From Bacteroidia bacterium (lineage in GTDB: Bacteria; Bacteroidota; Bacteroidia; Chitinophagales; JAUHXS01): a stretch of DNA of 64,000 nt. Each line of letters begins with the position of its first letter. Position 1 is the first letter of the stretch. Positions 24,949 to 25,495 of this stretch are shown piece by piece. The notes under the pieces were generated by a model, which saw only the letters and a program-made list of their open reading frames with translations, searched no databases and was not told the origin of the DNA. The DNA lies in NCBI GenBank assembly GCA_030426955.1, contig JAUHXS010000009.1, forward strand, positions 62,001-126,000. Direction: 5' to 3'. The position numbers and the translations under genes were made by a program.

Positions 24949-24983
24949 AAAAAAAGCCCTCTTTTGCCGAAGCTCCAGAGGGC
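24949..24983 (-). terminator. Terminator of the initiator-tRNA unit
   Basis: On the minus strand GCCCTC (24983-24978) pairs with GAGGGC (24961-24956), followed by seven T residues (24955-24949). It begins 4 nt after the tRNA discriminator base. Confidence 0.8.
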
Positions 24984-24987
24984 AATG

Positions 24988-25060
24988 TAGCGGGGGCTGG
25001 ACTTGAACCAACGACCTTCGGGTTATGAGCCCGACGAGCTACCATCTGCTCCACCCCGCG
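24988..25060 (-). tRNA. tRNA-Met (CAT), initiator type
   Basis: A complete 73-nt cloverleaf. The acceptor CGCGGGG pairs with CCCCGC and leaves an unpaired C1/U72, the initiator hallmark. The D stem is GAGC/GCTC. The anticodon stem has the three G-C pairs typical of initiators around CTCATAA (anticodon CAT at nt 34-36), and the T arm is GTTGG-TTCAAGT-CCAGC. CCA is not encoded. It is the only intact copy here. Two partial copies lie upstream in the same transcription direction with a nuclease gene between them (25120-25478). A terminator follows directly. Confidence 0.95.
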
Positions 25061-25119
25061 ATATAATCTTCGTGCCTTCATGAATAAAATAAACCCTTTA
25101 GGGTTGTCGTACAGTTGGT

Positions 25120-25159
25120 CCGACGAGCTATCCGCCAACTGGCGGACTTCCACCCCGCG
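25120..25159 (-). pseudogene. Partial initiator-tRNA copy (5' part) with hairpin 16-mer in the D-loop
   Basis: Corresponds to tRNA nt 1 to about 31. It has the acceptor 5' strand CGCGGGG, the D-stem region and the start of the anticodon stem, then breaks off. The D-loop is replaced by TCCGCCAGTTGGCGGA (7-bp inverted repeat, 2-nt spacer; 25131-25146). It differs from the other partial copy by one extra base next to the 16-mer. It overlaps the last codons of the GIY-YIG ORF, whose stop TAG lies just after the 16-mer. It lacks the anticodon, T arm and 3' acceptor strand, so it cannot act as a tRNA. Confidence 0.85.
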
Positions 25160-25403
25160 ATGTAATTTTATTCCTAATAAAGGAACGTCCCTTGGCTGAT
25201 TTTAGTTCCTTTTCTCTTTTTAGAGCTAAGGATCTTGTTTCTAGGTTTTCTTTGTAGATAACCTGCCAGGGTCTAAATTTTTTCGTCCAACCTTTTTCAC
25301 TTAACTCATTATGGTATTCGAGCCGTTTTTCTAGGTTGGAAGTCTGACCGATATAGATTTTATTATACTTTTCAGAATATAATCCATAAACTATATAAGT
25401 CAT
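25128..25403 (-). CDS. GIY-YIG nuclease domain protein
   Basis: 91 residues from ATG 25403. A single GIY-YIG catalytic domain: YIVYGLYS (GIY strand), KIYIGQTSNLEKRLEYHN (YIG strand and catalytic Arg), and the catalytic Glu in KREKELKSAKGR. The core ends near SFIRNK. The last dozen residues are read from the partial tRNA copy and are probably not part of the ancestral protein. The frame is also open upstream to a TTG at 25490 through the other tRNA fragment; I reject that start because GIY-YIG proteins of this type begin at the conserved MTYIVY. Bacteroidota carry many such small nucleases of unknown role. Here it is sandwiched between two tRNA fragments in the same orientation, suggesting a mobile or homing-type element. 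Confidence 0.88.
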   Translation of the reverse strand: MTYIVYGLYSEKYNKIYIGQTSNLEKRLEYHNELSEKGWTKKFRPWQVIYKENLETRSLALKREKELKSAKGRSFIRNKITSRGGSPPVGG

Positions 25404-25418
25404 TTCAGTACTTTTAAG

Positions 25419-25478
25419 AACGACCTTCGGGTTATGAGCCCGACGAGCTATCCGCCAACTGGCGGACTCCACCCCGCG
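25419..25478 (-). pseudogene. Partial initiator-tRNA copy (nt 1 to ~48) with hairpin 16-mer in the D-loop
   Basis: Matches the intact tRNA from the 5' end through the complete anticodon arm and variable loop (ending GGTCGTT). The 7-nt D-loop segment CAGATGG is exchanged for TCCGCCAGTTGGCGGA (25451-25466). The T arm and 3' acceptor strand are missing. It is followed 15 nt later by the nuclease ATG and preceded by an exact TAnnTTTG box at tRNA-promoter distance. This is the position where the original tRNA gene probably began. Confidence 0.88.
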
Positions 25479-25487
25479 ATGTACCAA

Positions 25488-25495
25488 CAAAGGTA
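25488..25495 (-). promoter_or_regulatory. -7 box of the tRNA/GIY-YIG unit
   Basis: Minus-strand TACCTTTG is an exact TAnnTTTG match and ends 9 nt before the first base of the partial tRNA copy at 25478. That places the start of transcription close to the tRNA 5' end. No such box is evident right before the intact tRNA, so the whole unit down to the terminator at 24949 may be one transcript. Confidence 0.6.

Follow-up and report, generated by a model that had tools for sequence, protein, structure and literature searches.

In fungal mitochondria, endonuclease elements consist of a nuclease gene and a duplicated replacement gene end, which keeps the host gene working. Slx1 acts together with Slx4 on branched DNA, and to our knowledge neither Slx1 nor UPF0213 is known as a mobile element. 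SegB, a free-standing GIY-YIG enzyme of T-even phages, is reported to act within tRNA-containing DNA and to drive tandem amplification by recombination (PMC13096335).

We analysed a stretch of 64,000 nucleotides from a Bacteroidia bacterium (assembly GCA_030426955.1, contig JAUHXS010000009.1, positions 62,001 to 126,000), referred to below as the window. On its minus strand, between positions 25495 and 24949, a GIY-YIG nuclease gene lies in an initiator-tRNA transcription unit, and this locus probably arose through a single insertion of a minimal element that resembles homing endonuclease genes and would use the tRNA gene as portable homology. A preliminary description had read the order as -7 box, partial tRNA, GIY-YIG ORF, second partial tRNA, spacer, intact tRNA and terminator, and all of these parts were indeed present:

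25488..25495, minus strand: -7 promoter box TACCTTTG, 9 nt ahead of dead copy 1 (sequence)
25419..25478, minus strand: dead 5' copy 1 of tRNA-fMet, nt 1-51 (direct repeats of the intact tRNA and alignment)
25451..25466, no strand: palindrome TCCGCCAGTTGGCGGA within dead copy 1, 16 nt (sequence and genome-wide search)
25128..25403, minus strand: GIY-YIG nuclease ORF, 91 aa, single-domain (PF01541, E 8e-15; AF2 model)
25120..25159, minus strand: dead 5' copy 2 of tRNA-fMet, nt 1-30 (direct repeat of copy 1, spacing 319)
25131..25146, no strand: palindrome TCCGCCAGTTGGCGGA within dead copy 2 (sequence and genome-wide search)
25061..25119, minus strand: spacer of 59 nt from dead copy 2 to the intact tRNA (sequence and comparison with intact arrays)
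24987..25060, minus strand: intact initiator tRNA-fMet, anticodon CAT (ARAGORN; Rfam RF00005, 60.8 bits)
about 24949..24983, minus strand: intrinsic terminator, GCCCTCT...AGAGGGC followed by a T run (sequence)

The first fragment, initially given as nt 1-48, is a partial 5' copy as stated, and it extends to nt 51; the palindrome TCCGCCAGTTGGCGGA, which had been missed, stands in place of tRNA nt 13-19 (the D-loop) in both dead copies. The promoter had correctly been assigned to the first fragment and not to the intact tRNA, and inspection of the sequence found no -7 box directly before the intact tRNA-fMet of the window. The 3' end of the ORF overlaps dead copy 2, from which the ten C-terminal residues (SRGGSPPVGG) are read. 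Given the distance of 319 nt between the starts of the dead copies, the locus can be read as a two-unit array in which the second unit is without its ORF; from the comparison with intact arrays elsewhere, we infer that the 59-nt spacer region is what is left of this second unit. The partial copies described on both sides of the ORF are real, and are better seen as tandem repeats of a single unit type in a short array; a second polarity exists at other loci. The arrangement is not due to chance, since the direct repeats of the window (41 and 36 nt) are 90-92% identical and the arrangement recurs at nine further tRNA loci of the source genome and at most of more than 200 related ORFs in other genomes. 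A search of the source genome revealed no second fMet-like gene. An endonuclease borne by a group I intron was rejected, as Rfam matched only the tRNA in the window and no such intron around the ORF, and NCBIfam TIGR01453 scored far under its cut-off.

The match of the ORF product to the PF01541 profile places it in the GIY-YIG nuclease superfamily. Residues Y6, Y17, G19, R27, H31 and E64 were invariant in alignments of 10 and of 27 family proteins, and they cover the expected GIY-YIG core (Tyr of GIY, Tyr and Gly of YIG, Arg, Glu). The AF2 model of the window protein had a pLDDT of 88.9, and the closest solved relatives, by sequence and by fold, were Slx1 and UPF0213 (1ywl, 1zg2), not I-TevI. 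Proteins of the family have about 78-91 residues and no second domain; in the window protein, no DNA-binding domain was found outside the GIY-YIG core. The median dN/dS of the nuclease was 0.11 in the genus g18, which indicates purifying selection.

The source genome contains 11 small GIY-YIG ORFs. Ten of them directly adjoin a tRNA gene, each at a locus of its own (fMet, two other CAT tRNAs, three Arg, two Ser, Val and Phe), and a degenerate copy of the same tRNA lies on the opposite side of the ORF. The sole unlinked ORF (L013, 1495-1737) lies inside another dispersed repeat, with GTCATGTCGAGGCACGAGACATCTA on both sides and a TCCGCC palindrome close to it. A profile built from the source-genome proteins matched 198 of the 296 sampled Bacteroidota genomes, with up to 18 matches per genome. 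In a scan of named genomes, an intact tRNA was found near 76 of 80 loci, always on the strand of the ORF; the hosts belong to Bacteroidota, several Patescibacteria groups and Omnitrophota. We compiled a set of 239 distinct related ORFs from Bacteroidota and Patescibacteria, the genomes compared including metagenome assemblies. The nearest tRNA was on the ORF's own strand in every case, and the genes targeted comprised 27 anticodons and, in one genome (L041), the tmRNA. Most of the ORFs that had no tRNA gene in the stretch examined still had tRNA fragments; L013 and L170 were clear cases of small GIY-YIG ORFs without a tRNA link. The tRNA-linked share may be lower among weaker relatives, because the matches were ranked by similarity to tRNA-linked members. 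A relative of the nuclease was also seen on a viral contig, near a group I intron (L157, 562-1416).

The elements insert within tRNA genes and tmRNA in two polarities, with one copy of the tRNA intact and the other truncated and usually broken by a palindrome. In the upstream type, to which the window belongs, a dead 5' copy is followed by the ORF and then by the intact tRNA; in the downstream type, the intact tRNA and its terminator are followed by the ORF and a dead 3' copy. The fragments started exactly at nt 1 in 89 of 97 upstream-type cases and ended exactly at the last tRNA nucleotide in 68 of 89 downstream-type cases. With alignment scores far above those of shuffled tRNAs, chance tRNA fragments were ruled out. 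An element measures about 290-450 bp and consists of one GIY-YIG ORF and a piece of the tRNA gene; in single-contig genomes, tandem arrays of near-identical units of 315-450 bp were found. At upstream-type loci, scored with Bacteroidota boxes, the -7 box (TAnnTTTG) preceded the dead copy in 24 of 68 cases and the intact tRNA in 4 of 68, compared with 1 for shuffled sequences. The source genome also has related noncoding stretches of ~125 nt (GAATCAA ... TTGATTTTGACCT ... GGATCA) 3' of tRNA-Arg TCG, TCT and ACG (L005, L007 and L008, respectively), at least two of which carry a duplicate of the tRNA 3' end at their terminus. These are possibly downstream-type elements without an ORF.

Filled and empty versions of the same site were found among related genomes. 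In the genus g18, for which 121 genomes were searched, the fMet locus beside era was compared in 30 genomes: about 24 were empty, three were filled, two carried scars without an ORF (G387 and G299) and one was broken by a contig end. In G400, the ORF of the element was interrupted by a stop. Comparison of the filled G374 with the empty G222 and G336 showed closely alike flanks and a 364-bp insert within the tRNA-fMet gene, flanked by a 27-nt repeat that corresponds to tRNA nt 48-74. This insert carries its own terminator, the ORF and a dead copy, so that the old terminator now stands 3' of the dead copy, and the intact tRNA of the filled allele is identical to that of the empty alleles. G374 also harbours a second, about 97% identical copy of the element in a different fMet gene with unrelated flanks. 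For the upstream type, an insert of about 290 bp was seen in a tRNA-Ala gene of G130, the site being empty in G234. One intact tRNA remained after insertion in both pairs. At the same tRNA-Ala gene, G413 has a downstream-type array without nuclease, namely a 241-bp tandem array of tRNA-Ala 3' ends and terminator (L332, 839-1468) that contains no GIY-YIG ORF. The era-fMet pair of the window is conserved in relatives from the same taxonomic order; in seven of them the site is empty and the gap amounts to 70-183 nt, versus 547 nt in the window; in six of these seven, the -7 box stands directly before the tRNA-fMet. Presence and absence at one site among related genomes is a feature of homing elements.

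The filled and empty pairs, the empty era-fMet loci and the spread over 27 anticodons bear out the proposal, made in the preliminary description, that an element had entered a tRNA gene and that a full tRNA was left or rebuilt, and likewise its suggestion of an unusually small mobile element made of a nuclease and tRNA-derived ends. The search of relatives that it called for yielded both nuclease genes with tRNA fragments and empty sites. It had considered that nuclease genes without fragments in relatives, or fragments older than the nuclease gene, would speak against this reading: nearly all the genes examined had fragments, and orthologous sites without nuclease were free of fragments, except for the two ORF-less scars.

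The nuclease tree required 69 anticodon changes, versus at least 143 when shuffled, and 116 changes of host family, versus at least 148 when shuffled. The nearest protein from another family had the same anticodon in 56 of 112 cases (5.4 expected by chance), and the nearest one from another phylum in 15 of 77 (5.4 expected by chance). Elements in tRNA-Leu genes of Patescibacteria and Bacteroidota shared 64-71% identity. The phylogeny indicates that nuclease lineages keep one tRNA target across families and phyla; horizontal spread combined with loyalty to one target, which these data show, is another feature of homing elements, and homology alone could account for the loyalty. With these two defining features of the class, the element appears to work like a free-standing homing element. 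The absence of any DNA-binding domain beyond the GIY-YIG core, a fold nearer to Slx1 and UPF0213 than to I-TevI, and the occurrence of ORF-less units at tRNA genes are points against this reading.

A homing event would begin with a nick or break made by the nuclease at or near a tRNA gene, and the tRNA sequence, conserved between species, would provide homology on both sides. Repair off a copy bearing the element would then install the ORF with a piece of tRNA and rebuild the tRNA. In the upstream type, transcription from the tRNA promoter would run through the dead copy and the ORF as far as the intact tRNA, and RNase P would free the latter. Break-and-repair at the tRNA repeats may give rise to arrays and, by deletion, to ORF-less scars. 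In classic homing, the recipient site is destroyed by the insertion. Because the tRNA of the filled allele is unchanged, a carrier should still be cut if the site were wholly inside the tRNA. Donor cutting is usually inefficient according to the SegB paper (PMC13096335), which softens this objection and does not remove it. Inefficient donor cutting, a site spanning the junction or a structure-specific target could each solve the problem.

The dead copies abound in perfect stems. Stems of at least 8 were present in 63 of 228 dead copies, versus 7 intact tRNAs and 0 shuffled sequences. The palindromes stand in loops, at positions that recur for each tRNA type (Arg nt 21/22, Leu nt 14/15/23, fMet on the anticodon side), and their stems, judged by eye, stay paired where the sequences diverge, as in the twin hairpins of tRNA-Ser. 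One 20-mer palindrome is common to Bacteroidota and several Patescibacteria; its exact sequence occurred in 24 of the 296 genomes, all 24 of which contain the nuclease (198 of 296 overall), these counts ignoring shared ancestry. Palindromes may shield the dead copy from cutting, impede its deletion by recombination or serve as substrate of the nuclease.

The main alternative is that the system is driven by hairpins, like RAYT/REP: the GIY-YIG protein would recognise and cut the palindromes of the dead copies, as hairpin or cruciform, the dispersed palindromes would be non-autonomous partners, and tRNA genes would be targeted because their arms form hairpins. The abundance of stems in the dead copies, the recurrent loop positions, the shared 20-mer and its co-occurrence with the nuclease all agree with this, as do the fold, nearest to that of the branched-DNA nuclease Slx1, and the presence of palindromes outside the elements, in the loops of other hairpin repeats. 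We nevertheless regard it as rather unlikely: palindromes are absent from some dead copies, the orthologous site of a related genome with many palindromes contains no element, and shared ancestry may inflate the co-occurrence. Unlikely, too, is the broader view that a single GIY-YIG domain and short hairpins make up a new kind of mobile system, in which the nuclease would act on hairpin DNA, tRNA and tmRNA genes would be its main nest and the scattered palindromes of Bacteroidota and Patescibacteria would relate to it as non-autonomous REPs do to RAYTs. Random insertion of palindromes alone, each event independent of the others, was rejected as the full story, given that one palindrome family occupies an identical tRNA position in numerous genomes, yet palindromes are present outside the elements as well. 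By eye only, TCCGCC..GGCGGA palindromes were seen in the loop of an apparent cobalamin riboswitch of the source genome (L305, 1501-1516) and in an apparent 23S rRNA loop of G159 (L297, 1501-1516). Palindromes also form clusters with a spacing of roughly 0.5-10 kb (G007:C2:1200428-1232722, G226:C1:2399071-2406136 and G159:C10:184885-190607).

An ordinary mini-element integrating into tRNA genes by means of a tyrosine recombinase supplied in trans, with the tRNA piece as att repeat and the GIY-YIG gene as cargo, would explain the resemblance to attL/attR of the direct repeat (27 nt) that downstream-type insertions show at the 3' end of the tRNA. It is very unlikely, as the units have no integrase, it is the 5' end that is duplicated in upstream-type insertions, the only gene is the conserved nuclease, and palindrome-bearing dead copies are unexpected for att sites. 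Passive tandem duplication of tRNA genes next to a resident housekeeping nuclease gene would produce arrays of near-identical units, and is made highly improbable by the empty orthologous sites with closely alike flanks, by the occurrence of a given nuclease lineage at one and the same tRNA in hosts of different families and phyla, and by the second copy with unrelated flanks in G374. Equally improbable is a regulatory or toxin-like module composed of a dead tRNA, serving as decoy or as RNA antitoxin, and a GIY-YIG protein with tRNA as its target: the ORF of the upstream type is apparently co-transcribed with the tRNA-like RNA, judging from the promoter position, but downstream-type units lie past the terminator of the tRNA, the ends of the dead copies vary from about nt 22 to 76 and no RNA-cutting relative was found. 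An origin from a phage, plasmid or viral contig (one weak phage match, no plasmid match, and three weak viral relatives, in whose vicinity no tRNA gene was found) and a defence system (weak PADLOC matches only) were also rejected.

We found no description of a spare part nested in a tRNA gene, of two polarities or of hairpin-broken copies in the open-access literature searched, and an earlier report may exist elsewhere. The elements form an apparently undescribed, widespread family, are very small, and leave one working tRNA when they enter tRNA genes of many bacteria. If the homing reading is correct, tRNA genes of several phyla harbour a mobile element that ranks among the smallest autonomous ones known, and an essential host gene is kept working by the element's own spare part. 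This would account for many tRNA pseudogenes and for many genes whose sole annotation is 'GIY-YIG nuclease family protein', would reveal a route of spread from phylum to phylum by way of DNA that is among the most conserved in the cell, and would offer a natural system for gene rebuilding at a break.

Among known systems, tRNA-integrating genomic islands are similar in leaving the tRNA intact and in having a direct repeat of its end on both sides of the insertion; unlike them, the present units have no integrase, occur also with 5'-end polarity and measure only 290-450 bp. As with REP/RAYT (TnpAREP), short palindromes are found both dispersed in the genome and beside the nuclease gene, but RAYTs are Y1 HUH enzymes, while the sole protein of the present units is a GIY-YIG nuclease and their target is tRNA genes. 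SegB likewise is encoded by a GIY-YIG nuclease gene among tRNA genes; it is a phage protein, and no dead tRNA copies or hairpins are described in the available part of the report (PMC13096335), whereas the present proteins sit inside cellular tRNA genes. Finally, the fungal mitochondrial elements occupy protein genes of an organelle, while the elements described here occupy bacterial tRNA and tmRNA genes, with copies broken by hairpins.
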